Source: Cupriavidus basilensis (lineage in GTDB: Bacteria; Pseudomonadota; Gammaproteobacteria; Burkholderiales; Burkholderiaceae). Taken from it: a stretch of DNA of 64,000 bases. The DNA lies in NCBI RefSeq assembly GCF_000876015.1, contig NZ_BBQM01000018.1:1-64000 (forward strand). The letters are read 5' to 3'. Position numbers and translations under genes: made by a program. Each line of letters starts with the position of its first letter. Position 1 is the stretch's first letter. This document shows positions 13,282-36,087 of this stretch, one piece after another. The notes beneath the pieces were generated by a model, which saw only the letters and a list, made by a program, of their open reading frames with translations, was not told where the DNA came from and ran no database searches.

Positions 13282-13947
13282 ATGCTTGCTGCCTTGTCCA
13301 CCTCATCCATCTCCATCCTCATCGTCGAAGACGATGCGCCGCTGCGCCAGGAGTTCGAGCGCATGGTCCAGGCCCACGAAGGGCTGCGCCTGCTGGGCGC
13401 CGCCGGCACGCTGGCGCAGGCGCGTGCGTTGCTGCAACGCTGCCGCCCGGACGTGATGATCGTCGACCTGGGCCTGCCCGACGGCGACGGCGTCGAACTG
13501 ATCGCGGCCGTGGCGCGCGAATGGCCCGAGACCGCGTCGCTGGTGGCGACCGTGTTCGGCGACGAGGCCCATGTCATTCGCGCCATCGAGGCCGGCGCGC
13601 GCGGCTACCTGCTCAAGGACACCTCGCTGGAAGAGTTCGCCCACGCCCTGCGCGTGGTGCACGACGGCGGCTCGCCGCTGTCGCCACGGATCGCGTGCCA
13701 TCTGCTCAGGCGCCTGGCGCCGGCGGCGCAGTCGGCATGGCAGGCTGGCCCCAACGCGCTGACCAGCCGCGAGATCGACATCCTGACCCACATCTCGCAA
13801 GGCTACACGGTGGCCGAGGCCGCCAGTCTCATGCATATCTCCACGCATACGGCCTCCACGCACGTCAAGAATATCTACAGCAAGCTGGCGGTGCGCAACC
13901 GGGTCGAAGCGGTCAACCTGGCGCGCCGCCAGGGCCTGATACGATGA
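13282..13947 (+). CDS. LuxR/NarL-family response regulator
   Basis: Cytoplasmic transcription regulator of 221 residues. The N-terminal receiver domain has the acidic pair in LIVEDDAP, the phospho-acceptor Asp62 in VDLGLPDGDG and the conserved Lys in YLLKDTS. A LuxR-type helix-turn-helix follows at about 155-215 (LTSREIDILTHISQGYTVAEA). I start at ATG 13282 because the receiver fold begins right after it; an ATG at 13252 is possible, while the more upstream open frame does not look coding. The stop overlaps the start of the kinase gene as ATGA, which indicates translational coupling. The location directly behind the adhesin gene suggests, but does not prove, that the pair regulates adhesin expression. 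Target promoters are unknown. Confidence 0.9.
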   Translation: MLAALSTSSISILIVEDDAPLRQEFERMVQAHEGLRLLGAAGTLAQARALLQRCRPDVMIVDLGLPDGDGVELIAAVAREWPETASLVATVFGDEAHVIRAIEAGARGYLLKDTSLEEFAHALRVVHDGGSPLSPRIACHLLRRLAPAAQSAWQAGPNALTSREIDILTHISQGYTVAEAASLMHISTHTASTHVKNIYSKLAVRNRVEAVNLARRQGLIR

Positions 13948-15818
13948 AGCGCCCGTGGATGCGGCTGCCGGCCTGCGTGGTAGCGCTGCTGGCCTGCCTG
14001 CTTGTGCTGCCCGATAGCGTCCAGGCCATCAACCCGGTCACGCCCACGGCACAGGCCGCGGCTGCCCCTCCCGCCACCACGCCCGCCGCCACGATACCCG
14101 GGACGCTCACCCCGGCGCTGCCCGCCACCGACGACGGCGTGCTGTGGCTGGAGCACGGCGAATTCGTCGCCAGCGACGCGCCGCTGCCGCCCGCCGCCGG
14201 CTGGACGCCGGTCGCGCTGCCCGACAACTGGCGCCTGAGCCGGCCGCAATACAGCGGCTACGGCTGGTACCGCCTGCGCTTCACCCTGCCCGCGGTGCCA
14301 CGCGAGCCCCAGGCCCTGTACCTGCCGCGGCTGGCGCTGATCGGCGAGCTATGGTTCAACGGCTCGCTGCTGAGTCCCGACGTGCGCTTCGACGAAGCGG
14401 GCCGCAAGGGCGACAGCATGGCCGATGCGCCCCTCTATCTGGTGCTGCCTTCCGCCCTGTTCCGCCCCGGCGAGAATATGCTGGACGTGCGCCTGCAAGG
14501 CGATCGCGGCCTGCGCAGCGGCCTGCCGGCCATCCGGCTCGGGCCCACCCATGTCCTGCATCCGGTCTGGCTGCTGCGCTACCTGCCGCAGGTCGTGGCG
14601 CCCTACATCCTGCTGGTGCTGGTCGCCGGCGCGTTGTGCTTTCTCTCCGCCTACGCCCGGCGCCAGCGGCACTTCGGGGCCACGCCGCAGGCCTTTCTGG
14701 CCGGCCTGGTGACGCTGTTGCTGTACCTGACGCAGGCACTGCCGGTGTCGCGCGACAGCCTGGAAGGGCTGCGCGCCCTGGCCAGCCTGCCCATGTACTG
14801 GCTGCTGTGCGTGGAAGGCTATCGCCTGAGCGGCTTCGCCATACGTGGCATGCATGCCGTCATCCACGGCCTGTCGGCGCTGACCGTGGCGGCCATCGTG
14901 GCGGCGCTGGCCCTGGGCGACTCCGGCGACGACATATGGATGCTGACCTGGCCGCACCTCGCCCTGCGGGTGCTGCTGTGCGGCCTGCTGCTGGTGGCCG
15001 GCTGGCGCCGGCGTTCGCCCAAGCTCGTACTGCTGGCATTGAGCGCGGCGTTGTGGTGCGCGACGGTGGCGCAGTCCTACCTGATCCTGATGGAGTGGCT
15101 GCCCTGGGACGCATTCCGCTGGAGCGTCGCCGGCGCGCTGCCTTTCTGCGTCGTGCTGATCTTCGTTTTCGCCGAGCGCTTCATCCTCGACCGCGAGGAA
15201 AGCGCGCGCGAACGGCAGGCGGCCATCGCCACCGAGCGCGGCCGCATCCTGCAGGACATGCACGACGGCATGGGCGCCCAGCTCATCACCGCGCGCCGCC
15301 TGGCCCAGCGGCCCGACGTCGACCGCCGGGACCTGGAGCGCGCCATCGAGGAATCGCTGCAGGACCTGCGCCTGATCATCGACTCGCTGGACCTGACCGA
15401 CAGCGACCTGCTGTCGCTGCTGGGCAACCTGCGGTTCCGCCTGGCACCGCGCCTGGCCACGCTGGGCATACGCCTGACGTGGGACGTGCTGCCGCCGCCC
15501 GAGCTGGACGCGCTGACGCCGACGTCGGCGCTGGCCATCCTGCGCATCGTGCAGGAGGCCATCAACAACGCGCTGCGCCACGCCGCACCCGCCCACATCC
15601 GCGTATCGGTGCGGCCCGAGGGCGAGCACATCGTCATCCGGGTCGCGGACGACGGACAGGGCTTCGATCAGCCGGCTGCCAACCCGGGCTCGCGCGGGCT
15701 GGCCGGCATGCGCCTGCGCGCCGAGCGCATCGGCGCCCGGCTGGACGTGCGCAGCGCGCCCGGCCACGGCACCGAGGTCAGCCTGACGATCCCGACGGCC
15801 ATGCCGCCGACACCGTAG
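13944..15818 (+). CDS. Membrane sensor histidine kinase (NarX/DegS type), partner of the preceding regulator
   Basis: A 624-residue kinase. It has an N-terminal signal sequence (residues 1-28), then a periplasmic beta-rich domain of about 170 residues with a jelly-roll look (WYRLRFTLPAVP, YLPRLALIGELWFNG). Seven or so hydrophobic segments follow from about 210 to 410, the layout of 7TMR-DISM-type sensors. The cytoplasmic part holds a HisKA_3 dimerization box with His440 in DMHDGMGAQL and a HATPase_c domain with the N-box EAINNALRHA near 539 and the G-box VADDGQGFD. Such kinases pair with LuxR-type regulators, matching the gene just upstream. The ATG at 13944 overlaps the regulator stop. The ligand is unknown; the sugar-binding-like fold hints at a carbohydrate or envelope signal. 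Confidence 0.9.
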   Translation: MKRPWMRLPACVVALLACLLVLPDSVQAINPVTPTAQAAAAPPATTPAATIPGTLTPALPATDDGVLWLEHGEFVASDAPLPPAAGWTPVALPDNWRLSRPQYSGYGWYRLRFTLPAVPREPQALYLPRLALIGELWFNGSLLSPDVRFDEAGRKGDSMADAPLYLVLPSALFRPGENMLDVRLQGDRGLRSGLPAIRLGPTHVLHPVWLLRYLPQVVAPYILLVLVAGALCFLSAYARRQRHFGATPQAFLAGLVTLLLYLTQALPVSRDSLEGLRALASLPMYWLLCVEGYRLSGFAIRGMHAVIHGLSALTVAAIVAALALGDSGDDIWMLTWPHLALRVLLCGLLLVAGWRRRSPKLVLLALSAALWCATVAQSYLILMEWLPWDAFRWSVAGALPFCVVLIFVFAERFILDREESARERQAAIATERGRILQDMHDGMGAQLITARRLAQRPDVDRRDLERAIEESLQDLRLIIDSLDLTDSDLLSLLGNLRFRLAPRLATLGIRLTWDVLPPPELDALTPTSALAILRIVQEAINNALRHAAPAHIRVSVRPEGEHIVIRVADDGQGFDQPAANPGSRGLAGMRLRAERIGARLDVRSAPGHGTEVSLTIPTAMPPTP

Positions 15819-16349: not shown

Positions 16350-17330
16350 ATGCTGTCCCTCACGATTCTCTGTACCGGCAAGGCACTGCCATCGCAGCGC
16401 GTTTCATCCGACGAACTCGACGTGAAGCTGGGAGCCCTGCCCGGCTTCTGCCGGAGCAAGTCGGGCATCGATTTCCGCTACGTTGCCGCACCCGGCGAGA
16501 CGCAATCCGGACTGGCCGCGGCCGCGCTGCGCGATGCGATGCGGCGCGGCCGGTGCGAGGCCGCGTCGATCGATCTGCTGCTGTCGGTGTCGGGAGTCGG
16601 CGAGCAGGCCTTGCCCAGCACCGCCAGCCGGATTCTGGAGCCGGCCGGACTGCCCGCCGGCACGCCGGCGTTCGACATCAACGCGAGCTGCCTGGGCTTT
16701 CTGGCCGCCTTGCAGTTGGCAGCCAGCCTGCTGGCAAGCGGCACTTACCGGCGCATCGCCATTGCGGCATCCGACCTGGCATCGCGCGGCGTCGACTGGG
16801 ACAACCCCGAGGCCTCCTTGATCTTTGGCGACGGCGCCGCCGCGGCCATCGTCGAGCAAGGCGACGCCCGTACAGGCATCGACGCGTTCCGGATGGAGAC
16901 GCACCCGGCAGGCAATACCCTCTGCGAGGTCCGCGCCGGCGGCACGCGCCGCAACCCGCGCACCGGCGCCGAACCGGCGGACTACCTCTTCAGAATGGAT
17001 GGCAGGCGCCTGTTCAGGCTGACGTCCGAGTTGATGGGCGGGTTCGTGGAACGCCTGTTTTCCGGCCTGCCATACGGCCCCGGCGACGTGGACATCGTCA
17101 TACCGCATCAGGCCAGCCACCTCGGCATGGAACACGTGCGCAAGCGTCTCGGGATAAGGCCGGAGGATGTCGTCGACATCTACCGGCAACATGGCAACCA
17201 GGTAGCCGCGTCCATCCCGACGGCACTGCATGAGGCATTCGCACAGCGCCGCATCTTCCGCGGTACCCGCGTGCTGCTGATCGGCACCGCGGCCGGACTG
17301 ACGCTTGGCGGAATGGTCCTGGTCATATGA
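16350..17330 (+). CDS. 3-oxoacyl-[ACP] synthase III-like (KAS III) condensing enzyme
   Basis: A thiolase-fold enzyme expected to join an acyl-thioester to a malonyl or second acyl-thioester. All three residues of the KAS III triad are visible at the expected spacing: Cys114 in NASCLGF, His253 in IPHQASHLGM and Asn283 in HGNQVAAS. At 326 residues it has the normal FabH length. It heads a specialised operon rather than sitting with fabD/fabG/acpP, so a dedicated role (OleA-like head-to-head condensation or priming of a special acyl chain) is more likely than housekeeping synthesis; this is inference. I start at ATG 16350, since the ten residues before it (PHEQRRSNT) look non-coding. The stop overlaps the next start as ATGA. 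Confidence 0.9.
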   Translation: MLSLTILCTGKALPSQRVSSDELDVKLGALPGFCRSKSGIDFRYVAAPGETQSGLAAAALRDAMRRGRCEAASIDLLLSVSGVGEQALPSTASRILEPAGLPAGTPAFDINASCLGFLAALQLAASLLASGTYRRIAIAASDLASRGVDWDNPEASLIFGDGAAAAIVEQGDARTGIDAFRMETHPAGNTLCEVRAGGTRRNPRTGAEPADYLFRMDGRRLFRLTSELMGGFVERLFSGLPYGPGDVDIVIPHQASHLGMEHVRKRLGIRPEDVVDIYRQHGNQVAASIPTALHEAFAQRRIFRGTRVLLIGTAAGLTLGGMVLVI

Positions 17331-18340
17331 CGATCCTGGTCACCGGCGCGACCAGCGGGCTGGGCCGCAATGCGGTCGACGCGCTGCTGCGCGACGGCAT
17401 CGCCGTGCGTGCGACCGGGCGCAACCTCGCCGCAGGCGAGGCACTGGAGCGCAACGGCGCCGAATTCGTTCCCGCGGATCTGGCAACGCTCGACGAGGCG
17501 AAAGCCGATGCGCTGCTTCACGGTGTCGACGCGGTCTGGCATTGCGCCGCCTTGTCCGCACCCTGGGGCCGTCACGCGGACTTCGTGGCGGCCAATGTAT
17601 CGGCCACCCGGCATATGGCGCAGGCTGCCGCGGTACGCGGCGTCCGCCGCTTCGTGCACGTATCGACGCCTTCGATCTATTTCGACTACCGGCACCATCG
17701 CGGCATCGAAGAAACGTATCGCGCGGCAAGATTAGCCAATCACTATGCGGCCACCAAGGCGGCGGCCGAGGATCGCATCCTGACGCTGTCCAGCCAATGG
17801 CGCGGGACCACCTTCGTCATCCTGCGGCCTCGCGGTCTCTTCGGCCCGCATGATCGGGTGATCGTGCCGCGCATCCTGCAACTGCTGCGGTCCCGGCACG
17901 GTGTGCTTCCGCTGCCGCGTGGCGGGAAGGCGTTCATCGACATGACCTACGTCGGCAACGTGGTGCATGCCATGAAGACCGCCACCCATGCGCCCGTTGC
18001 CTCCGGCGAGGCGTTCAACATCACCAACTTCGAGCCATGCACGCTGGCGTCGATGCTCCAGCGCCTGCTCGGCGACGGCCTGGGCCTGCGATACCGAATT
18101 CGCGCGCTTCCGTACCCGCTGCTCGACGCGGCTGCGCGCGCGGCCGAACTCGGGGCGCGGCTGCGCCGCCGCGAGCCGCTGTTGACGCGCTATGGCATAG
18201 GCGCGCTGCATTTCGACATGACACTGAGCAATGCGCGAGCGCGGCAGCGGCTGGGCTACCACCCTCGCCACGGCATCGACGAGGGCATTCGCCTGACTGC
18301 CGACTGGATTCGTGGCCATGGCGACCATTACGGCATTTGA
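17327..18340 (+). CDS. NAD(P)-dependent epimerase/dehydrogenase (3-beta-HSD/OleD-like extended SDR)
   Basis: An extended short-chain dehydrogenase of 337 residues. The dinucleotide-binding motif GATSGLG is at residues 7-13, the catalytic Ser region is HVSTPSIYFD (111-120), and the catalytic Tyr140 and Lys144 are in YAATK. The RPRGLFGPHD segment after the active site is typical of the 3-beta-hydroxysteroid dehydrogenase/OleD branch. In olefin synthesis OleD reduces the beta-keto acid made by OleA; placement right after a KAS III gene suggests an analogous ketoreduction. It overlaps the upstream gene by four bases and the downstream gene by about 23 bases, so the products are probably made in fixed proportion. 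The true substrate is unknown. Confidence 0.85.
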   Translation: MTILVTGATSGLGRNAVDALLRDGIAVRATGRNLAAGEALERNGAEFVPADLATLDEAKADALLHGVDAVWHCAALSAPWGRHADFVAANVSATRHMAQAAAVRGVRRFVHVSTPSIYFDYRHHRGIEETYRAARLANHYAATKAAAEDRILTLSSQWRGTTFVILRPRGLFGPHDRVIVPRILQLLRSRHGVLPLPRGGKAFIDMTYVGNVVHAMKTATHAPVASGEAFNITNFEPCTLASMLQRLLGDGLGLRYRIRALPYPLLDAAARAAELGARLRRREPLLTRYGIGALHFDMTLSNARARQRLGYHPRHGIDEGIRLTADWIRGHGDHYGI

Positions 18341-19124
18341 GGCGGGCTACTGCATCCATCCGGCCTGCATTGCGCTGCGGGGCGCGGGCCTCTCGGCGCG
18401 CGCCTTCCCCGCGCGCGGCTATCTGCTCGAAGCGAAGGGCCGCCGCTGGCTGTGGGATACCGGCTATGCATCGCATTTCCTCGACCACACACGGCGCGGC
18501 ATCCATGCGCTCTATCGCTGGGTCACGCCGGTACGCTTCGATGCCGCCGAGGCTCTCGTCCACCAGCTCGCGAGAGCGGGCCTGCGTCCGGCCGACCTGG
18601 ACGGCATCATCATGTCGCACTTTCACGGCGATCACATCGCCGGGTTGCGCGATTTTCCCGGCGTGCCGCTGATCTGTTCGGGAAACGGCTGGCGGGCGAC
18701 GCATCCTCTGCGCGGCATTCGGGCGCTTAGCCGCGGCTTCGTTCCCGAGCTTGTCCCGAGCGATTTCGGCACGCGCGCCCGATTCGTCGAAACGTTCCGA
18801 CACATGGCGCTGTCCGCCGCGCTGGCGCCGTTCGGCCGGGCCTACGCCCTGCCGAATGCGGGCAACGAGATCCTGCTCGTCGAACTGCCCGGCCATGCGG
18901 CCGGCCACATCGGCGCGTTCGTCGACACCCGCGACGGCTGGGTGCTGCTCGCCTCCGATGCCGCGTGGTCCCCGGAAGGCTACCTGGAGCCGCGGGGCCC
19001 CTCCCGGCTGGCGCACCTGATCATGGACGATCCGGTGGCGTACTACGCGACGCTCGACAAGCTGCACCGGCTCCATGCCACGGGCCGCGTGTCCATTCTG
19101 CTGACGCATGAGGAAGCCCGCTGA
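18318..19124 (+). CDS. Metallo-beta-lactamase-fold hydrolase
   Basis: A soluble 268-residue hydrolase with the metal-binding motif HFHGDH at residues 101-106 and later His residues in LPGHAAGH and LLTHEEA, enough for a binuclear zinc or iron site. The family includes thioesterases, lactonases and glyoxalase II. In this operon a role in releasing or editing an acyl-thioester or lactone intermediate is plausible but inferred. I take ATG 18318; GTG 18312 is an alternative. The gene starts inside the end of the dehydrogenase gene and its TGA shares one base with the next ATG. Confidence 0.85.
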   Translation: MATITAFEAGYCIHPACIALRGAGLSARAFPARGYLLEAKGRRWLWDTGYASHFLDHTRRGIHALYRWVTPVRFDAAEALVHQLARAGLRPADLDGIIMSHFHGDHIAGLRDFPGVPLICSGNGWRATHPLRGIRALSRGFVPELVPSDFGTRARFVETFRHMALSAALAPFGRAYALPNAGNEILLVELPGHAAGHIGAFVDTRDGWVLLASDAAWSPEGYLEPRGPSRLAHLIMDDPVAYYATLDKLHRLHATGRVSILLTHEEAR

Positions 19125-20422
19125 TGCGATTGCACCGCCTGCTGTGGGCTTACGCGAATGCACGTCTGCGCCGCCATGCGGATCGGGCGGCGCTGGAACG
19201 CCACCAGGCGGCCGCGATCGATCGATTCGCGCGCACCGTCTTGAGACACAGTCCGTGGTTCCGTCCATACGCCGATCGGCCGCGCCACACCTGGCCGTTG
19301 ATGGACAAGCAGGTCATGCTCGCCCATTTCGACGAGATGAATACCGCCGGACTGAAACTTCAGGAGGTGTTGGCGTGCGCGATGCGCGCGGAGCATGACC
19401 GGGACTTCAGTGCCACGCTCGGCGGCTACAGCGTCGGCCTGTCGTCGGGCACCTCGGGAAGCCGAGGCGTGTTCGTCGCCAGCGCGGATGAGCGCGCCAC
19501 ATGGGCAGGCATCATGCTGGCGAAGATGCTGCCCCGGGGACTGATGCACCGGGAGCGCGTGGCACTGTTTCTGCGCGCGAACAACCGGCTCTATTCGACA
19601 GTACGGACACCGTGGCTCTCATTCGTCTTTTACGATCTTTTCCAGCCGCTCGAGTCCCTGTTGAATCGACTCGAAGCGTACCGTCCGACCATCATCGTCG
19701 CGCCGGCACAGGTGCTGCGCGCCATCGTCCTGGGCGTGCACGGGAATCGAGCCGCCACGTTGCGCCAGTGCCGGGCTGTCGCCGTCGCCGAAGTGCTCGA
19801 GCCGCTGGACCGCGCACTGCTCGGCGAAGCCTTCGCCAGCGTCGGCGAGGTCTACCAGGCGACCGAGGGCTTCCTCGGTGCGACCTGCCCGCACGGGACA
19901 ATGCACCTGAACGAAGAGTTCGTGCACATCGAACCCCAGTGGCTGGACGAGTCGCGGTTTGTGCCGATCATCACCGATTTCACGCGCAGCACCCAGCCCA
20001 TCGTCCGCTATCGGCTCGACGACGTGCTCACCGTCCGCCACGCGGCCTGCCCCTGCGGGAATCCCGCAAGGGCGATCGAGCGGATTGAAGGGCGCTGCGA
20101 CGATATGCTCGTGCTGCCGGGCATCGACGGCGTGGAGCGCACCGTCTTCGCCGATGTGTGTGCCCGGGCGCTTGCCCAGGCGCTTCCCATGCATGCCGAC
20201 TACCGGCTCATACAGACCGGCTCGACGTCGCTGGCGCTCTCGGTCGATGCGGGACCCGGCACAAGCATTTGCGCTTCGGCCTGCCGGCAACACCTGGAGG
20301 ACGTGTTCGCCCGGCTCGGCGTCGCCACCCAGGCCATTGAATGGACGGTGGCAGACCGCCTGCCGAACACCGATTTCATGCTGAAGCGACGGCGCATCAC
20401 CCGCGCGAGGGAGCCCCGATGA
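19124..20422 (+). CDS. CapK / coenzyme-F390-synthetase-like adenylate-forming enzyme
   Basis: A 432-residue member of the ANL superfamily branch that includes phenylacetate-CoA ligase, CapK and F390 synthetase. Visible motifs are the phosphate-binding loop SSGTSGSRG (107-115), the adenine-region motif YQATEGFLG and RYRLDD before the hinge. A CPCG zinc-knuckle-like segment follows, as in the PaaK/CapK group. It should activate a carboxylate as acyl-AMP. Beside KAS III and OleD-like enzymes it could fill the OleC role, but it is not in the OleC family. There is no second catalytic domain. It overlaps the previous gene by one base and the next by four. Confidence 0.82.
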   Translation: MRLHRLLWAYANARLRRHADRAALERHQAAAIDRFARTVLRHSPWFRPYADRPRHTWPLMDKQVMLAHFDEMNTAGLKLQEVLACAMRAEHDRDFSATLGGYSVGLSSGTSGSRGVFVASADERATWAGIMLAKMLPRGLMHRERVALFLRANNRLYSTVRTPWLSFVFYDLFQPLESLLNRLEAYRPTIIVAPAQVLRAIVLGVHGNRAATLRQCRAVAVAEVLEPLDRALLGEAFASVGEVYQATEGFLGATCPHGTMHLNEEFVHIEPQWLDESRFVPIITDFTRSTQPIVRYRLDDVLTVRHAACPCGNPARAIERIEGRCDDMLVLPGIDGVERTVFADVCARALAQALPMHADYRLIQTGSTSLALSVDAGPGTSICASACRQHLEDVFARLGVATQAIEWTVADRLPNTDFMLKRRRITRAREPR

Positions 20423-21024
20423 ACGGATGGATCTTCCGACTGCGCGCAATGGCGCTCGGCTGGGGCACGGTCGGCATCGTCTACACGACCGCCGCCCTCG
20501 CGCAGGGATCCGGCACGGCGATTCCGGAGACCGCGCTGGACCGGCTCATTCCATTCGACCCGCGAGGCATTTGGCTGTACCTGTCGTTCTTCGCGCTGAT
20601 TCCGTTCGCCTATCTGCGCGCGGAGGCGCTCCGCCTGCCCTGGCTCGCACGATCCATGCAACTGAGCGCGATCGTGTCGGGCGTGGTCTTCGTGCTGTAC
20701 CCCACGACGCTGAGTTATCCCCTGTTCGATGATGCGTCTATCCCTACCCGCTTGCTTCGCCTGCTGATTGCCGGCGACTCCTCACAAAACTGCCTTCCAT
20801 CGCTGCATGCGGCGCTGACTTACCTTTCGGTATGGGCGCTGGCGGACGCCCGGCGCCCATGGCAAAGCGCGCTGGCCGCGCTCTGGGGGCTGGCCATCGC
20901 CTGTGCGATGGTCCAGACGCGCCGCCATCTGGCGCTCGACACGTCCGCGGGCCTGCTCGTCGCGCTTGTATGCGGCGCGATCGCATCACGCCGGCCATTC
21001 CGCTCCATGAGGATGCTGCCATGA
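20419..21024 (+). CDS. PAP2-fold integral membrane phosphatase/transferase
   Basis: A small membrane protein of 201 residues with five to six hydrophobic segments. It carries the acid-phosphatase signature CLPSLH (Ser128, His130) and the catalytic TRRHLALD (His170, Asp174). PAP2-fold enzymes dephosphorylate lipid phosphates or transfer head groups, as in inositol-phosphorylceramide or sphingomyelin synthases. In this operon it probably acts on a lipid made by the upstream enzymes, at or near the outer face of the inner membrane. The ATG overlaps the adenylating-enzyme stop, and its own stop overlaps the next ATG. Substrate unknown. Confidence 0.82.
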   Translation: MNGWIFRLRAMALGWGTVGIVYTTAALAQGSGTAIPETALDRLIPFDPRGIWLYLSFFALIPFAYLRAEALRLPWLARSMQLSAIVSGVVFVLYPTTLSYPLFDDASIPTRLLRLLIAGDSSQNCLPSLHAALTYLSVWALADARRPWQSALAALWGLAIACAMVQTRRHLALDTSAGLLVALVCGAIASRRPFRSMRMLP

Positions 21025-22118
21025 ACATGTTCGCGCTGCCGCTGGCACTGATGCTCGTCCTGGTCCTTGCCGACGTTGCCGGCCTGCGCTGGCTCCGAGG
21101 GCAGCGAACGCCATGGCGCGACGTGATCTTCAACCTCAATTCCGGCCATATCGTGATGTGGTTGTTCCGTGGCCTCGAGGTCATGCTGTTCGCATGGCTG
21201 TCGGCGCACCTGAATCTCCACTGGGTCACCCGGACCGGCGCCCTCGGCGTCTGGATATTCGCCTTCTTCGCCTGGGACTTCTGTTTCTACTGGCTTCACC
21301 GGCTGCATCACAGCATTCCCTTGATGTGGGCCGTCCACGCGGTCCATCACGAAGGCGAGCACTACAACCTGTCCCTGGGCGTGCGGAACTCCTGGTACTC
21401 GTCGCTGACATCGATCCCATTCTTCGCCGGCCTGGCCGTGGTCGGCGTTCCGGTGGAGGTGTTCGTGCTGGTCTCGGCCTTTCACTACTCGGTCCAGTTC
21501 TACAACCATTGCGGCACTATCCACCGCTCCGGCTGGCTCGACCGCGTCTTCGTCACGCCGGCGAATCACCGGGTTCATCATGGCCTGAATCCCGAGTACA
21601 TCGACAAGAACTTCGGCGGCACGCTGCTGCTCTGGGACAAGCTGTTCGGCACCTATCAGGCGGAGCTTCCCCGCGTAAAGATCCGCTACGGCGTCCATGA
21701 CGCCGTGGGCTCGGCGAATCCGTTCTGGGCGAACAACATCCCGGTGCTTCGCTGCTTCGGCCTGGACGTGCCCAGGCGCGGGGCCGCCACCCCGTCGTCA
21801 CCGATGGCCGACGGCTGGATCGCCAGCGGTGGCCTCATCCTGTTCGGCTTCGCCATCTACTATGTGCGGTGGCAAGGCCTGCTTCCGTCACCGCAGGAGC
21901 CCCTGTTGTTTGTGTGGATCGTCATGCAGACGATCGCGCTCGGCGCGCTGTCGGATGGATGGCGCAGCGCCCGCCGCACCTGGAGCGCGATGGCGCTGGC
22001 GATGCCCGCCTGCTTCGCGGGCCTGTTTGGCTGGCGCGATCCGCTCGGCTGCGTGCTCCTCGCGCTGCTGGCACTGCACGGCCTCGCCTGTCTGTTCGCG
22101 CGCGCTCCGGAGGCATGA
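21021..22118 (+). CDS. Sterol desaturase / fatty-acid hydroxylase family di-iron membrane enzyme
   Basis: A 365-residue integral membrane oxygenase. Its histidine clusters are HRLHH (93-97), HAVHH (106-110), NHCGTIH (162-168) and HRVHH (183-187), the eight-histidine pattern of fatty-acid hydroxylases and C-5 sterol desaturases. At least four hydrophobic segments come before or between them and three more follow at the C-terminus (about 275-360). In bacteria such enzymes usually hydroxylate acyl chains or carotenoids. Here it probably modifies the chain of the operon's lipid. It begins within the stop of the PAP2 gene and ends four bases before the desaturase gene. Confidence 0.87.
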   Translation: MNMFALPLALMLVLVLADVAGLRWLRGQRTPWRDVIFNLNSGHIVMWLFRGLEVMLFAWLSAHLNLHWVTRTGALGVWIFAFFAWDFCFYWLHRLHHSIPLMWAVHAVHHEGEHYNLSLGVRNSWYSSLTSIPFFAGLAVVGVPVEVFVLVSAFHYSVQFYNHCGTIHRSGWLDRVFVTPANHRVHHGLNPEYIDKNFGGTLLLWDKLFGTYQAELPRVKIRYGVHDAVGSANPFWANNIPVLRCFGLDVPRRGAATPSSPMADGWIASGGLILFGFAIYYVRWQGLLPSPQEPLLFVWIVMQTIALGALSDGWRSARRTWSAMALAMPACFAGLFGWRDPLGCVLLALLALHGLACLFARAPEA

Positions 22119-22122
22119 CGCG

Positions 22123-23229
22123 ATGACGACGCGCTTCTGGCCCACCGGCGAATCGGCCTTCGATATTGCACTGCGCGAGGCGGCCGGGGCCTATCTGCGC
22201 GAGGCGGGCGATCATCGCTACGCGAACGCACGGCACTGGATGAAAGGCGCCGTTCTTCTCGCCGCCGCGGCCGGGTCAGGCGCACTCGCGCTGACGGCGG
22301 ACGGATCGATGCGTTTCATGGTCAGCTACATCGCCTGCGTCATGCTGTTCGCGCTGCTGGCCGTCAATGTCCTGCATGACGCAGCCCACGGGACCCTTGT
22401 CGATCCCATGCGCACATCCCGCGCGGCATCCCGGCACTGGCAAGCGCTGATCGCGCGGGTCGCCGCCTTGCCCCTGGGCATCGAGCCGGCATATTGGCGC
22501 GTTCGCCATGTCGAATTCCATCATCCCTACGCGAACATCGAAGGCCGTGACCTCGACATGGAAGAGAATTTCTTCCTGTGCCAGACGCCATTTCAGAAAA
22601 GACGCGCCCACCATCGCTGTCAGCACCTGTATTGGCCGTTGATCGCAGCCTTGTCGATGCCATATGTCGGCTGGGTCTACGACTGGTCCGATCGGCTCGG
22701 GCTGACCCCTGTCGGCAAGCGCCGCGCCCTGCGTGGTGCCGGCGGCTGGCTTCTGTTCGTTGCAACGAAGCTGGCACACTTCGCGCTGATGCTGGTGCTG
22801 CCGGCCTGGATCCTGTCCAGGATGGGCATCGGCTGGAGCGCCGCGCTTGGCACTTATGTCGTTGCGCAAATGGCGGCGTCCTGCCTCGTCGTCGGGCTGC
22901 TGCTCGGCACGCATTGGGCCGATGTCGCGTTCTACCGGGAACCGCCAGGCGGGACGATGCCGCATGGCCGGCGCGAGCACGGCCTGTACACCGCGGTGGA
23001 CTGGCTGCCGCGGCCGCGCTGGATCGGTTTCTGGCTGGGAGGGCTCCATCGCCACGCCACCCATCACCTGTTTCCATCATGGCACCACCGCCATTGCGAC
23101 GCGCTCGCGGCACTGGCGGCGCCGATCGCTGCCCGTCACGGCCTGCCGTATCGCGTGCTCACGTATCGCGAGCTCATCGCCGCCCAGCAGCGGTTCCTGA
23201 AACGGATGGGTGCCCCGGGCCCACGCTGA
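22123..23229 (+). CDS. Membrane fatty-acid desaturase
   Basis: A 368-residue desaturase with the three classic histidine boxes: HDAAHG (85-90), HVEFHH (129-134) and HRHATHH (309-315), with hydrophobic pairs between them. The box spacing fits acyl-lipid desaturases that use a di-iron centre and O2. It is the last gene of the operon. The ATG at 22123 has a GGAGG-like site (CCGGAGGC) in the end of the previous gene. With the hydroxylase-family enzyme before it, the pathway product is likely both hydroxylated (or otherwise oxidised) and unsaturated; that is inference. Confidence 0.88.
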   Translation: MTTRFWPTGESAFDIALREAAGAYLREAGDHRYANARHWMKGAVLLAAAAGSGALALTADGSMRFMVSYIACVMLFALLAVNVLHDAAHGTLVDPMRTSRAASRHWQALIARVAALPLGIEPAYWRVRHVEFHHPYANIEGRDLDMEENFFLCQTPFQKRRAHHRCQHLYWPLIAALSMPYVGWVYDWSDRLGLTPVGKRRALRGAGGWLLFVATKLAHFALMLVLPAWILSRMGIGWSAALGTYVVAQMAASCLVVGLLLGTHWADVAFYREPPGGTMPHGRREHGLYTAVDWLPRPRWIGFWLGGLHRHATHHLFPSWHHRHCDALAALAAPIAARHGLPYRVLTYRELIAAQQRFLKRMGAPGPR

Positions 23230-23419: not shown

Positions 23420-23519
23420 CGCCATACTTGACCGCAATTGGCCAAGATCGTCGGCAACGGTCTCCAGGCGATGCAGGCCGTGACATGTATATGCGCTTGC
23501 CATGTTGAAAGGAGTTGAT

Positions 23520-23942
23520 ATGTGGACAGTCGAGGTCACAGGTGAATGCGCCGCGACACCGGCCCAGGTCTTCGGCATCCTGGCGGAGCCGGAGAAGTGG
23601 TCGGAGTGGAACAAGGGCGTCCTCAGAATCGAGATGCATGGGCCGTTCCGGGCCGGCACGACGGCGGTGATGGTCCTGCCGGATTCGACGGCGCTGCCGT
23701 TCCGCTTCGCGTGGGTTGAGGCCGACAAGGGCTTCGAGGATGTGACCGAGGTCCCCGACGCCGGTGTGGTCGTCCGCGTTCGCCACGAACTATCGGCGAC
23801 CGGGCACAGCACCCGGATCACCTATCGCTGCGAAGTCGACGGACCGGAGCCGGCAGCCAGCGAGGTGGGGGCTGCGGTTACTTCCGACTTCGCCGATGTC
23901 ATCGCTGCCCTCGGTTCTCGTGCGGAACAGTTGGGTGCGTGA
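23520..23942 (+). CDS. SRPBCC-family (polyketide cyclase/START-like) protein
   Basis: A 140-residue single-domain protein. The start of the fold (VEVTGECAATPAQVFGILAEPEKWSEWN) and the central strand-turn-strand pattern match the helix-grip SRPBCC family, which binds hydrophobic ligands in a deep cavity. I choose ATG 23520 because AAAGGAG lies just upstream; ATG 23502 is less likely. It stands alone, 290 bases after the lipid operon and in the same direction. It may handle a lipid ligand, but no link is shown. Intact and of normal length. Confidence 0.8.
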   Translation: MWTVEVTGECAATPAQVFGILAEPEKWSEWNKGVLRIEMHGPFRAGTTAVMVLPDSTALPFRFAWVEADKGFEDVTEVPDAGVVVRVRHELSATGHSTRITYRCEVDGPEPAASEVGAAVTSDFADVIAALGSRAEQLGA

Positions 23943-24331: not shown

Positions 24332-24847
24332 ATGATTGGCGCCACATTGATATGGGACCCCGCCTCTCCTTTCACCTGGCAAACGTGGTTTCGAAATGCA
24401 TCCCTGGGCAAGATGATGCAAACGACGTGTACCGTGACCAACGCATCGATCAGGGTCCCCATGGATCCCATCAACGCTACCGTGCTGAGCGCACAAGGCA
24501 GCGGCGGCGAGACCGGCTTCAATATCGGCCTGAGCAACTGCGCCTCCGGCCCCACGGTCTACATCACCCTCACCGACCTCACCACGCCAGGCAACCGCAG
24601 CGACCTGCTGACTCCGGCATCCGGCTCCACCGCCACCGGCGTGCGGTTGCGCATCTTTCGCGGCAGCACACCGGTCAGCTACGGGCCGGATTCGGTTGCG
24701 CCGGGCAACCCCGGCCAGTGGCGAGTGGGCGGCACCACCGGCGCCAGCGCCCTCAACATCCCGCTGAGCGTGCGCTACGTCGCCACCGGCGCCGTTGGTG
24801 CGGGTTCGATCAACGGCGTGGCCACCTTCATCATGAGCTACCAGTAA
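24332..24847 (+). pseudogene. 5'-truncated fimbrial subunit / fimbrial adhesin C-terminal pilin domain
   Basis: The frame encodes 171 residues ending VATFIMSYQ, the typical end of a type-1-like fimbrial subunit. The pilin domain contains the paired cysteines (CTVTNASIRVP and LSNCASGP) and the beta-strand pattern LSVRYVATG. There is no signal peptide, and the frame is closed by a stop 21 bases before the first ATG. The upstream 400 bases hold no fimbrial sequence, and no chaperone or usher gene is near. It therefore looks like the surviving C-terminal half of a fimbrial adhesin or subunit gene. Confidence 0.65.
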
Positions 24848-25033: not shown

Positions 25034-25453
25034 TCAATCGATTGGCCGACTCAGAAAATCAACCGGCCTCAGTATGTCGATGCCATGGAAAGGATGCAGT
25101 TCCAGCAGATCCAAGTCTCCGGTCAGGATGACCTTCGCCTCGCCACTCAGCGCCGCATCCAGGAACTTATCATCCTTGGGGTCGCGGCATGCCGTCATCC
25201 GGCGGGTGACGGTGACCACCCGAACAACCCCACCGAGCAGAAGCACGAATTGCTGGCGGTCTTCGCGGGAGACGTAGCGGTCGAATTTCGGTCGGGCCAG
25301 CACATCCGCCAGCTCCGCCAACGTTTCCTCCGTCATCAGCGGCACACCCCAGGCCAGTCCGTGATCCACAGCCTTGGCTGCCGTCCCGCCAGGCATGAGC
25401 AAGCGACTGATCCAGAGGTTGGTATCGATTACCAGCTTTCGGTCAGTTCTCAC
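25034..25453 (-). CDS. PIN-domain toxin ribonuclease
   Basis: A 139-residue VapC-like protein of the PIN family found in toxin-antitoxin systems. Acidic residues expected to bind Mg2+ are Asp10 in LVIDTNLWIS, Glu43/44, Asp95/Asp99 in DPKDDKFLDAA, and Asp113/Asp115 in TGDLDLL. It would cut RNA when free of its antitoxin. The start lies within the last 11 bases of the antitoxin gene, so the two are translationally coupled. Length and motifs are complete, so the toxin is probably functional. Confidence 0.9.
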   Translation of the reverse strand: MRTDRKLVIDTNLWISRLLMPGGTAAKAVDHGLAWGVPLMTEETLAELADVLARPKFDRYVSREDRQQFVLLLGGVVRVVTVTRRMTACRDPKDDKFLDAALSGEAKVILTGDLDLLELHPFHGIDILRPVDFLSRPID

Positions 25454-25694
25454 TGCTCAGCAATCCCTGCAACACGTCCTCCGTCAGGCCAGCTTCCTTC
25501 GCCTTGGCACCGACACGATCACTGAAGCGCTGGAACTCGGCCACGTTGAGGTGTACCAGGCGCTCGTATTCGTCCATCGACATCACCACGGCCACATCCC
25601 GCTTCTGGCGCTGGATCACCACGGGCTCCCGCCGGGCAGCTTCAAGCACCTCGGCAAACCCCTGCCGGGCTTCACTTGCTGTAATGGTTCGCAT
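25443..25694 (-). CDS. Phd/YefM-family antitoxin
   Basis: An 83-residue antitoxin whose first 55 residues form the DNA-binding Phd/YefM fold (ITASEARQGFAEVLEAA, PVVIQRQKRDVAVVMSMDEY). The C-terminal 30 residues should wrap the PIN toxin. It precedes and overlaps the toxin gene, the usual order. A strong palindrome directly upstream of the start is the likely autoregulatory operator. Confidence 0.9.
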   Translation of the reverse strand: MRTITASEARQGFAEVLEAARREPVVIQRQKRDVAVVMSMDEYERLVHLNVAEFQRFSDRVGAKAKEAGLTEDVLQGLLSSEN

Positions 25695-32953: not shown

Positions 32954-34180
32954 ATGATGGGCCAGAATTCGATGCTAACCGACAAACAAGCAAGAGCACT
33001 CAAGCCAAACGACAAGCCTGTCTTCGATGGGAAAGTCACTGGGCTACTGCTGACACCAGCAAAATCCGGCTGCAAATGGACTCTGCGCTTCACCAGCCCG
33101 ACGACAGGCAAACGACGCGACGCGGGTCTTGGCACCTATCCCGAAACGTCAATTGCAGAGGCACGCGAAAAGGCGCTCGCCATGCGCAAGCTCATCGACA
33201 ATGGGGAAGACCCCATCGACCAGCGGAACCGAGAACGCGAAGCCGCCGCTGTTGTCGCGGCGGCCCTCACTTTCGAGAAAGCGGCCCGCCAAGTGCATGA
33301 AGAACTCAAGCCTGGCTGGAAGAACAAGAAGCATGCAGCGCAATGGATCAGCACGCTCGAAACCTATGTATTTCCGAAGATAGGAGCAAGAAAACTGGAT
33401 GCGATCACGCCCGCGGATTGCGCCGATGCCCTGCGTCCGATCTGGCTGTCGAAGGCTGAAACGGCTGGTCGCACCCGACAAAGAATGCACGCCGTCATGC
33501 AATGGGCCTGGGCACATGGCCACATCGCGGCAAATCCGCTTACCGTTATCGACCACATCCTGCCAAAGCAATCGGGAAAGAAGACCCACCAACCTGCCAT
33601 GCCGTGGCGGCAAGTTCCGACGTTCGTCTCTCAGCATCTCAAGGAGATTGATGCTGGCGACAGCACGCGCATGGCCCTCCTGTTCCTGATCCTCACCGCG
33701 ACACGCAGCGGCGAGATTCGCGGTGCGACCTGGGCTGAGTTCGATCTACGTAATCGCGTCTGGAGCATTCCAGCGGATCGGATGAAAGCTGCCGAAATGC
33801 ACCGTGTGCCACTGTCGGAAAAAGCGGTCTCGCTACTCGAAAGGATAAAGGAACGTCAATTGCACGATACGCTAGTCTTTCCCTCCCCGCGGGAAAAGAT
33901 ACTTAGCGACATGACCCTCACAGCATTCCTTCGTAGGGCCAAGGCCGAAAGCGATACCCCCGGCCGCTTTGCTACGGCCCATGGATTTCGATCAAGCTTC
34001 CGCGACTGGGCAAGTGAGCACGGCTACGCGCGCGATCTTGCAGAGCGGGCACTTGCACATACCGTCGCTAACAAAGTTGAGGCGGCTTACCATCGCACGG
34101 ACTTACTGGAGCAGCGGCGGCCGCTGATGGAGTCGTGGGCGAACCATGTCTACGCCTCGGTGGCTCCCACAGAATCATAA
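32954..34180 (+). CDS. P4-type tyrosine recombinase (island integrase)
   Basis: A 408-residue integrase. An N-terminal DUF4102-type arm-binding domain (LTDKQARALKPNDKPVFDGKV) is followed by a core-binding domain and the catalytic domain. Catalytic residues are visible: Arg in TATRSGEIRGATW, His and Arg in TAHGFRSSFRDW, His in ALAHTVANKVEAAY and Tyr in the same segment. It should drive site-specific integration and excision of the element to its right, usually at a tRNA 3' end. ATG 32972 (MLTDKQ) is an alternative start. No excisionase gene was recognised nearby. Confidence 0.93.
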   Translation: MMGQNSMLTDKQARALKPNDKPVFDGKVTGLLLTPAKSGCKWTLRFTSPTTGKRRDAGLGTYPETSIAEAREKALAMRKLIDNGEDPIDQRNREREAAAVVAAALTFEKAARQVHEELKPGWKNKKHAAQWISTLETYVFPKIGARKLDAITPADCADALRPIWLSKAETAGRTRQRMHAVMQWAWAHGHIAANPLTVIDHILPKQSGKKTHQPAMPWRQVPTFVSQHLKEIDAGDSTRMALLFLILTATRSGEIRGATWAEFDLRNRVWSIPADRMKAAEMHRVPLSEKAVSLLERIKERQLHDTLVFPSPREKILSDMTLTAFLRRAKAESDTPGRFATAHGFRSSFRDWASEHGYARDLAERALAHTVANKVEAAYHRTDLLEQRRPLMESWANHVYASVAPTES

Positions 34181-34397
34181 TCCCCAGGTTCGGACAACAC
34201 TCCCCTTGCTCCTCCATCGCCGCAGCTATAGGCCAACAGAGTAACTGTCTAGCTACAAACAGTTCACAAGCTTCATCTCCAGAACAGTAGCCATTACGGT
34301 CTCCGACTACAAAAACACTTACACCAACCGGCCAATACAATCAACAATTGATATTCGACCAATGAAACTAAAAAACGGCCTTGATATACCTACAATA

Positions 34398-35426
34398 CTA
34401 TTTTTTTTGCCGCGATATCCGCTCGACTTGTTTAGGCTTGACTATCCTCCGACCACTCCAGAATCGTCGATCACCATTCAATACCTTCGCTCTAAAATAA
34501 AATTCAGGCTCCGTCAATATTACGACAAATCTTAATGCCATCTCACCATTCATCTTTCCACACTGAATGTGGTCTCGCACATAGAACTCCACCGTCCCGA
34601 ATACCGGCAGCACCTCACGAGAAGCCATTTCTATTAATCTATCAAAGAGCCAAATGACATTATTTTTTGTAAACAACAAAACCTCAATATAATACCTGCC
34701 ACCTTCATCTTGCTTCAAGAAGATTGCGTGCCCAAGATATTGATCTCTCAATTCATGTTTTAGATTCCTAGCCAAGCCGTTTCGTAATCTTCGCATGGCA
34801 TCATAAATCTGCACCGCCAATCCTTTGAATTGCAGTCGATATACATGCAAGCCTTCATGAGACATAACTATCGTACTTGTCAGTCGCAGCATGCTACTCT
34901 GAACTTTTTCCGCAGCTTTCCGCCAAGAATTGATCTCCCGCACAAGCTCCTTTGACTTTGCCTCCCGCTCAAGAGCTTTATCAAAATGGTCATACAAGGA
35001 TCGGCGAGTCTCCTCGCAATCCTTTAACCTAGCCTTGCGATCCATTATAAGTTTCGGCACCGCAAGACGCCGGATATCTTTTGGATCATTTCCGTACACA
35101 CCTTGGCTACCGGCCCATTCCAAAATGACATCCACACACAAACGAAAATATGGATGGCGACACTCCCGATGATGATTCACCGAAATCTTCACCACTTCAT
35201 TGAGAATATCCTCAGAAAACACCAAGCCCACAAAATTCTCAAGGTCATAATTTCTCGAGTAATTCACCACATCATTCTCAACCTTAAAAATTGACCTCCT
35301 GCCTCTACGGTATTCAATTATCAGACCGGCAATCCATACCGATATTCCTTTGACAGTCCGAATAAATCGATCCGCATCTCTCCCCCAGAACTCCTCCACC
35401 TGCTCAATGCTCGGCTTTCCCAGCAT
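34398..35426 (-). CDS. Uncharacterised AT-rich protein, possibly a distant Gp2/replication-type protein
   Basis: A 342-residue protein from ATG 35426 (start MLGKPSIEQVEEFWG), with GGAG nine bases upstream; a TTG at 35462 would add 12 residues. It is rich in Lys, Arg and aromatic residues and far lower in GC than its neighbours, a sign of foreign origin. I recognise no family with certainty. A central segment (YLGHAIFLKQDEGGRYYIEV followed by LLFT) resembles the corresponding part of the Gp2-like protein encoded 1 kb away (YVWKIEQ, HHHVLLIF), but without its histidines. A coiled-coil-like stretch lies near residues 145-185. There is no signal peptide or membrane segment. Confidence 0.6.
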   Translation of the reverse strand: MLGKPSIEQVEEFWGRDADRFIRTVKGISVWIAGLIIEYRRGRRSIFKVENDVVNYSRNYDLENFVGLVFSEDILNEVVKISVNHHRECRHPYFRLCVDVILEWAGSQGVYGNDPKDIRRLAVPKLIMDRKARLKDCEETRRSLYDHFDKALEREAKSKELVREINSWRKAAEKVQSSMLRLTSTIVMSHEGLHVYRLQFKGLAVQIYDAMRRLRNGLARNLKHELRDQYLGHAIFLKQDEGGRYYIEVLLFTKNNVIWLFDRLIEMASREVLPVFGTVEFYVRDHIQCGKMNGEMALRFVVILTEPEFYFRAKVLNGDRRFWSGRRIVKPKQVERISRQKK

Positions 35427-36087
35427 CAGTTTATACTCCACTCCATTTAAAAACCCTCGCAAAAATCAATACTTCATTTCAGCAAATACCCAACGGGTAC
35501 GTAGCCCTGCAAATTCTGCTCGGAGCACAGCAAAGTATCGAAAGAATTATTAGGTTAGCACGAAGTGGTAGCAGAGTTGGTAGCAGCAGCATCGTATACT
35601 TGGTTCTCAGTGGGCTTCTAGTTAGTTCTGATGAGCTATTTGTTAGTTCATCAGAGATATAAAGTTAGTTCCCAAGCTAGCAAACTCGTTGGGAAGCACC
35701 GCACCCGATGCTACTGTGGAACCCCATGTCTCCATCAGGACTGCATGCGGGATGCTTGATGCCCCTCGGGATCTAGCGAAGACTGATAGCAGCGAGACTG
35801 GACAATTCGGAAGAATATGCCTGAGGCACAAGAGCCACAATAACGAAGGATGTTCACGACCAAGCTCCAGTAATGACTGGTCGTCCATCACCCTCCAATT
35901 TAGGAAAGTAATAAGGTAGCAGAGAAGTAGTATAGCAATGGAGAAATGGAGAAGTAGCAGAGAAATAATAACTCAACAAGGCAGCATGATATAGCAGCTC
36001 CAACAGTACCGGCAAGAATGAGCTGACTCGAAGTCGCCAACATGTTCCCTTTGATTGACCACCAGAGAACCTGATAAGGACGCGATC
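35427..36087. other. AT-rich intergenic region with iterons, possible replication origin
   Basis: No gene is seen in these 660 bases between divergent genes. It holds the GTTAGTTC iterons and hairpin, three copies of GTAGCAGAG (35568, 35916, 35954) and a purine-rich stretch at 35916-35970. The Gp2-like gene starts at its right end. Confidence 0.5.
35620..35671. repeat. Three iterons with an overlapping hairpin, candidate origin
   Basis: GTTAGTTC occurs at 35621, 35642 and 35664, a spacing of 21-22 bases (about two DNA turns). A perfect eight-base inverted repeat, TCTGATGA / TCATCAGA (35627-35634 and 35648-35655), lies across the first two copies. Iterons plus a hairpin upstream of a replication-type gene is the usual layout of an initiator binding site. 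Confidence 0.5.

Follow-up and report, generated by a model that had tools for sequence, protein, structure and literature searches.

The stretch analysed here (the window) comprises 64,000 nucleotides of Cupriavidus basilensis (contig NZ_BBQM01000018.1, positions 1 to 64,000), and its positions 16350-23229 are filled by seven intact frames on the + strand, each with one stop, at the frame end. The families assigned to them with Pfam and NCBIfam follow this order:

16350..17330, + strand: gene 1, KAS III-type ketosynthase of the MxnB/CorB group (PF08545/PF08541), with Cys114/His253/Asn283
17327..18340, + strand: gene 2, extended short-chain dehydrogenase/reductase (SDR), an OleD-like reductase of the epimerase/3beta-hydroxysteroid dehydrogenase type, with TGxxxxxG and Ser113/Tyr140/Lys144
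18318..19124, + strand: gene 3, metallo-beta-lactamase (MBL)-fold metal hydrolase (PF00753), with HFHGDH, its nearest solved relatives being lactonases
19124..20422, + strand: gene 4, F390-synthetase-related, PaaK-like adenylating enzyme (TIGR02304), with the motifs SSGTSG, YQATEG and YRLDD
20419..21024, + strand: gene 5, PAP2_3 membrane protein (PF14378), with His130/His170/Asp174 and without KX6RP
21021..22118, + strand: gene 6, membrane enzyme of the fatty-acid hydroxylase/sterol desaturase family (PF04116, 101.1 bits), with three HxxHH boxes
22123..23229, + strand: gene 7, membrane fatty-acid desaturase (PF00487, 73.7 bits), with HDAAH, HVEFHH and HATHH

Successive genes are spaced by -4, -23, -1, -4, -4 and +4 bases, five of the six junctions being overlaps, and composition is even over all seven (GC 0.65-0.69, GC at third codon positions 0.79-0.86). 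An earlier note on this DNA had described seven coupled lipid-type genes, nearly all overlapping and with intact catalytic motifs; this description holds, and the catalytic residues are conserved in relatives.

A scan of genome contigs with gene 4 gave at least 562 encoded relatives, and the best-scoring 80 were kept as a set of loci (numbered with the prefix L). All seven genes were found in the same order in 53 of these 80 loci, a share biased upward by the choice of the most similar among the at least 562, and a contiguous four-gene core (KAS III, SDR, MBL hydrolase and gene 4) was found in 77. The three core-less loci are L051 and L052, where no KAS was found beside the SDR, and L058, which lies at a contig end; one of the 53, L047, is blemished by an MBL match that splits into two pieces. 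As the same seven genes recur in order in 53/80 loci and the core in 77/80, a chance origin of the gene order is excluded: the conserved seven-gene, lipid-type operon is real, and its genes are not scattered in relatives. In Pseudomonas caricapapayae (L072), another of the 53, the KAS III frame (L072:5203-6171) carries an internal stop, and this copy may be decaying.

The genera in the 80-locus set include Burkholderia, Ralstonia, Cupriavidus, Paraburkholderia, Janthinobacterium, Pseudomonas, Serratia, Pectobacterium, Erwinia, Escherichia, Xenorhabdus, Providencia, Rahnella, Gilliamella, Snodgrassella and others, and the carriers are soil, plant, insect and gut bacteria. The operon is thus widespread and not special to the C. 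basilensis genome, so the composition that had been called unusual is not peculiar to its source. No published description was found among the titles and abstracts listed from the Creative Commons-licensed literature of PubMed Central, nor was any described pathway matched there; as far as these searches go the operon is undescribed, and a description elsewhere is possible.

When a plasmid collection was searched with gene 4, 61 records were matched, 23 of them over at least 80% of the gene, and all seven genes in order were present on records of Burkholderia stagnalis (L032) and Escherichia coli (L033). The latter, filed as a plasmid of E. coli KE48, looks chromosomal and misfiled, because narGHJI, purU and hns adjoin the operon on it. 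The E. coli version was present in 672 of 5,426 complete genomes, about one in eight, and 671 of the 672 hold 80% or more of its 6,882 bases; 671 of its 673 places are chromosomal, and one carrier is an O25b:H4-ST131 blood isolate. In both E. coli loci read, the operon lies between narI and purU; it is absent at that locus in K-12 MG1655, where ychS, rttR/tpr and tyrV/tyrT are found instead. Such E. coli strains would gain a membrane desaturase and a hydroxylase missing from K-12 MG1655 at this locus. A position directly behind the nar nitrate-reductase genes was also seen in loci of Escherichia, Leclercia and Serratia, nine of the 80 plus L033 (L033, L057, L059, L064, L074, L083, L092, L093, L094 and L096), which may reflect a common insertion site or a link in function. 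Carriage of gene 4 by phages was rejected, with no tblastn match among 50,697 phage records.

Within related bacteria the presence of the operon is patchy. Gene 4 exceeded its family cut-off in three of 60 genomes of the same genus, in one of 200 genomes of the order (the source genome itself) and in two of 274 genomes of a class sample, the source genome counted. For this patchiness, horizontal spread of the operon is the simplest account. One of the three genomes of the genus (G235) carries two cores: the KAS on its contig C22 is nearly identical to that of Cupriavidus sp. BIS7 (L053). The second core, L154 (G235:C10:145000-161000), is divergent and is followed by ATP-grasp, GNAT and Rieske/VanA_C oxygenase genes. 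Between E. coli L033 and Escherichia sp. E1V33 (L096), the ratio of nonsynonymous to synonymous changes (dN/dS) was 0.08-0.15 in all seven genes, and between L033 and L093 it was 0.05-0.41, with few changes behind the values. These low ratios indicate that the operon genes are under purifying selection in Escherichia.

The genes that accompany the core are exchangeable. Among ten loci of the plasmid collection whose surroundings of gene 4 were read (L032-L036 and L039-L043), seven have a contiguous core; in L040 an ATP-grasp gene interrupts it, L043 keeps the MBL and gene 4, and L035 has gene 4 only, going by annotation. Five finishing sets were distinguished. The first, as in the window, consists of the PAP2 protein, the hydroxylase and one or two desaturases; three Xenorhabdus loci (L075, L085 and L088) have a PAP2 gene on the upstream side of the core. 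The second comprises a second SDR, then a GT21-family glycosyltransferase (79.3 bits with the HpnI model, cut-off 310), a small unassigned protein and a GT1-type glycosyltransferase. Its domains were identified in L057, the remaining loci being assigned by clustering; all four genes are present in L057, L067, L079, L098 and L114, and three of the four in L069 and L090. In L057 and L069 this set stands behind the full operon, and in L067, L079, L090, L098 and L114 it replaces genes 5-7. The third set consists of ATP-grasp and GNAT genes (L034, L040, L120 and L154); L042 has a GNAT that falls into the same cluster. The fourth is a protein of about 1,000 amino acids in L122 and L112, for which AMP-binding and carrier domains were identified in L122; the HALMDAGG in its first 400 residues we take to be the condensation-domain motif of a non-ribosomal peptide synthetase (NRPS)-type module. 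The fifth is a sulfotransferase pointing away from the core in L036 and L039. That the finishing genes vary behind a constant core suggests a single activated building block as the product of the core, finished differently by different bacteria.

The Cys114/His253/Asn283 triad of gene 1 is invariant in 31 aligned sequences. In a profile search of the PDB, the family profile of gene 1 reached 289 bits with MxnB, 277 with CorB, 250 with the best FabH and about 100 with OleA; its structural model (predicted local distance difference test score, pLDDT, 90.7) had MxnB as top Foldseek match, with Z values of 44.0 for MxnB, 42.2 for the best FabH, 41.7 for CorB and 39.5 for OleA. In a 42-row tree, 35 operon KAS sequences together with MxnB and CorB were split from FabH and OleA at 95/90, the outside rows being two FabH and three sequences taken as OleA, one of them on a long branch, with long-branch warnings; a long branch (1.77) separates MxnB and CorB from the operon sequences. 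By alignment, Leu88, invariant in 49 sequences, occupies the position of the catalytic Glu of OleA (E117), a position that, according to PMC4578411, is Glu in both OleA and PpyS and is Val94 in MxnB and CorB. A Cys-His-Asn triad with a non-acidic residue at this position fits the MxnB/CorB type, and FabH may share both. For MxnB itself, PMC5724707 describes the joining of two long acyl chains through two tunnels.

Two plainer identities for gene 1 were rejected. A plain FabH scores above 292.1 bits with the model TIGR00747, the cut-off, and gene 1 stays at about 193 bits (192.6-193.1), the genome having its own FabH elsewhere (L147, 406.9 bits). An OleA identity is opposed by the score of about 100 bits, the place outside the OleA rows in the tree and the Leu in place of Glu. 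Compared with OleA and FabH, as the earlier note had proposed, gene 1 appears to join neither, grouping with MxnB/CorB in the tree.

The best curated match of the SDR was OleD (NF042422), at 153.5 bits for a cut-off of 580; its Ser113, Tyr140 and Lys144 are invariant in 32 sequences, and the profile of the operon SDRs scored OleD-type loci at 217-239 bits. In the SDR tree only the OleD group was used, as the outside rows were the longest frame per locus and several are probably wrong, with branches of up to 9 changes per column; the OleD rows form a tight group of their own (100/99). In the MBL protein, the metal residues (HxHxDH, His193 and Asp214) are invariant in 32 sequences. Gene 4 exceeds the cut-off of TIGR02304 (F390 synthetase-related protein; 483.9 vs 251.9 bits), and its nearest solved relatives in the PDB profile search are PaaK and PaaK-like ligases (PaaK 4r1l, 58.4 bits). 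The SSGTSG and YQATEG regions are conserved in 32 sequences; Lys421 is invariant in nine full-length sequences and does not appear on the 32-sequence invariant list, whose ends were trimmed by match limits.

The PAP2_3 match of gene 5 lies barely above its threshold (28.4 bits, cut-off 27), and His130, His170 and Asp174 are invariant in 54 sequences. The motifs PSxH and R-H-x3-D were present in 54/54 relatives and the phosphatase C1 motif KX6RP in 0/54. Loss of the C1 motif would separate PAP2 transferases from phosphatases, and a His-His-Asp triad without KX6RP fits an Aur1/SMS-type PAP2 transferase. The structural model (pLDDT 91.9) aligned over 188-198 residues with SMSr, inositol phosphorylceramide (IPC) synthase and Aur1, vs 149 with LpxE. 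The PAP2 fold named in the earlier note holds, and the protein may act by transferring a head group instead of as a phosphatase. For gene 6, the three HxxHH boxes, and for gene 7 the histidine boxes, are invariant in 21 sequences. Sequence searches of the PDB returned LpxE alone for gene 5, at E 0.29, whereas genes 6 and 7 had no match with an E value of 0.1 or less.

Our preferred reading, held tentatively and at somewhat under an even chance, is that this horizontally spread operon makes an unusual head-grouped lipid, in which a hydroxylated, perhaps two-chain acid is activated by adenylation, oxidised and desaturated. From the families, the intact catalytic residues, the gene order, the exchangeable finishing sets and the purifying selection in Escherichia, all directly observed, we infer every substrate, the step order, the acceptor, the head group and the product. 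The KAS III would join acyl or beta-ketoacyl chains from fatty-acid synthesis, two of them if it acts as MxnB does, into a beta-keto product, whose beta-keto group the SDR would reduce to a hydroxyl. A free acid might then be released by the MBL protein, which would hydrolyse either the thioester or a lactone derived from that thioester; the carboxylate of this acid would be adenylated by the PaaK-like enzyme so that the acyl group could be passed to an acceptor. At a lipid hydroxyl, the PAP2_3 protein would add or remove a phospho-head-group. Genes 6 and 7 encode two putatively oxygen-dependent, di-iron membrane enzymes, which would hydroxylate and desaturate a chain. Other bacteria would finish the same core with glycosyltransferases, with ATP-grasp plus GNAT, with a single NRPS-type module or with a sulfotransferase. 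If this is true, the E. coli carriers would have a lipid not known from the model organism K-12, and a single core combined with different finishing sets would mark out a family of bacterial lipids that genome mining can find; the product can be tested directly by expression in a laboratory strain.

Several observations weigh against this reading. For gene 1, the gap between MxnB and FabH is only 1.8 in Z, the 95/90 split depends on few outside rows (two of FabH, three of OleA) and carries long-branch warnings, and the operon KAS III sequences, at 43/14, are not supported as a group apart from MxnB/CorB; PMC4578411 places MxnB and CorB inside the FabH clade. The SDR scores far under the OleD cut-off, and the nearest solved relatives of the MBL protein in the PDB profile search are lactonases, not thioesterases. 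For the PAP2 protein, the phosphatase LpxE is among four tied best fold matches (Z 13.2 for SMSr, 13.1 for IPC synthase, 13.1 for Aur1 and 13.0 for LpxE), and in Foldseek its model gave no match reaching E 0.001. A bare core, with no recognised neighbour of the gene 5-7 types, was found in 12 of the 80 loci.

In a bolder form that we consider rather improbable, the operon would be a ceramide-like lipid pathway needing no serine palmitoyltransferase: the core would make and activate a hydroxylated two-chain acid, and the PAP2 head-group transferase, the hydroxylase, the desaturase and GT21 would finish it into a structural or host-active lipid. As part of the same improbable claim, the pathway would extend over Burkholderiales and Enterobacterales, including E. 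coli ST131 and bee-gut symbionts. Likeness to the sphingolipid enzymes lies in the full-length fold match of the PAP2_3 protein to Aur1/SMSr, in the FA_hydroxylase and FA_desaturase families and in the GT21 of relatives; SUR2, DES1 and ceramide glucosyltransferase are among the enzymes that act on the chain and head group of sphingolipids. Unlike that pathway, the operon has no pyridoxal phosphate-dependent serine palmitoyltransferase among its seven genes (the rest of the genome was not searched), and the homology is at superfamily level only.

The head-grouped lipid was weighed against four further explanations. The one that survives best, unlikely as we judge it, takes gene 1 as a specialised FabH: a single acyl chain would be extended with malonyl-acyl carrier protein, and genes 2-4 would yield a free or activated 3-hydroxy acid or a lactone, a small diffusible signal or precursor. 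The triad of gene 1 is that of FabH, which follows MxnB closely in profile bits and Z, the OleA-type Glu is missing and the MBL protein is nearest to lactonases; however, the tree groups the operon KAS III with MxnB/CorB and not with the two FabH rows, and the three membrane enzymes of the seven-gene version point to a membrane lipid. A KAS III and an MBL-fold hydrolase are also paired in PqsD and PqsE of quinolone signalling, but as a match to gene 1, PqsD comes after both MxnB and FabH.

Distinctly unlikely is a remodelling of the membrane, in which genes 5-7 would act on bulk phospholipid or lipid A, with the PAP2 protein as an LpxE/PgpB-like phosphatase, and the core would only supply a special acyl chain. 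Gene 6 does match a model of the OlsE type, at 68.8 bits and under the cut-off of 475, and LpxE ties with the transferases in the PAP2 fold comparison. The core and finishing genes travel, however, as one overlapping unit, and the C1 phosphatase motif is missing from all 54 PAP2 relatives.

The analogy to long-chain olefin synthesis drawn by the earlier note stands for the SDR, whose best curated match is OleD, and falls for the KAS III. As an explanation it is quite improbable: gene 4 would act like OleC and make a beta-lactone from the hydroxy acid, and opening or decarboxylation of this lactone by the MBL protein would give an olefin or a beta-lactone lipid. Besides that OleD match and the bits that OleD loci reach with the operon SDR profile, a further likeness to OleABCD is that one operon combines thiolase-fold condensation with an SDR of the OleD type and an adenylating enzyme. 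It differs by a KAS III of the MxnB/CorB group, outside the OleA group and without its Glu, by an SDR under the OleD cut-off and outside the tight OleD tree group, by three extra membrane enzymes, and by an MBL protein where Ole has the alpha/beta hydrolase OleB, a family that Pfam finds in none of the seven genes. Gene 4 is nearest to PaaK, and its profile had no match in four Ole-type loci, where OleC itself was not identified; the ligase, which had been called unrelated to the Ole one, is so only in part, as PaaK-like enzymes and OleC both belong to the ANL superfamily. As the KAS group and Glu, the OleD cut-off and the OleB gene all fail, the operon does not belong to OleABCD, although it works in a somewhat similar way.

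A secreted alpha-pyrone or related product, formed by an MxnB-like enzyme from two beta-ketoacyl chains and opened and decorated by the other enzymes, is very improbable: the pyrone-forming MxnB and CorB of myxopyronin and corallopyronin are the nearest solved relatives of gene 1 (sequence profile and Foldseek), with Val where gene 1 has Leu in place of the OleA-type Glu, and the MBL protein is lactonase-like, but these stand-alone ketosynthases serve polyketide synthase lines and lie on their long branch apart from the operon sequences, whereas the operon has SDR, MBL and adenylating genes and, by Pfam and NCBIfam, neither a polyketide synthase nor a carrier protein among its seven.

Around the operon, a LuxR-type response regulator and a histidine kinase are encoded just upstream on the same strand (13282-15818). 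This pair had no tblastn match up to E 1e-5 in 95 other loci, among them L044, which is without the operon; it therefore lies outside the conserved unit, and was rejected as a conserved operon regulator. Downstream, after a gap of about 270 bases, lie a small Polyketide_cyc2/lipid-transport (SRPBCC) gene (23502-23942), a fimbrial-protein family gene (24332-24847) and, on the - strand, overlapping genes for a PIN_3 domain protein and a Phd/YefM antitoxin (25034-25694), a likely toxin-antitoxin pair. Further on, at 32954-36000, a frame that by eye resembles a tyrosine-type integrase borders a low-GC stretch (GC 0.46 at 34001-36000), so that some 10 kb past the operon a mobile island probably starts.

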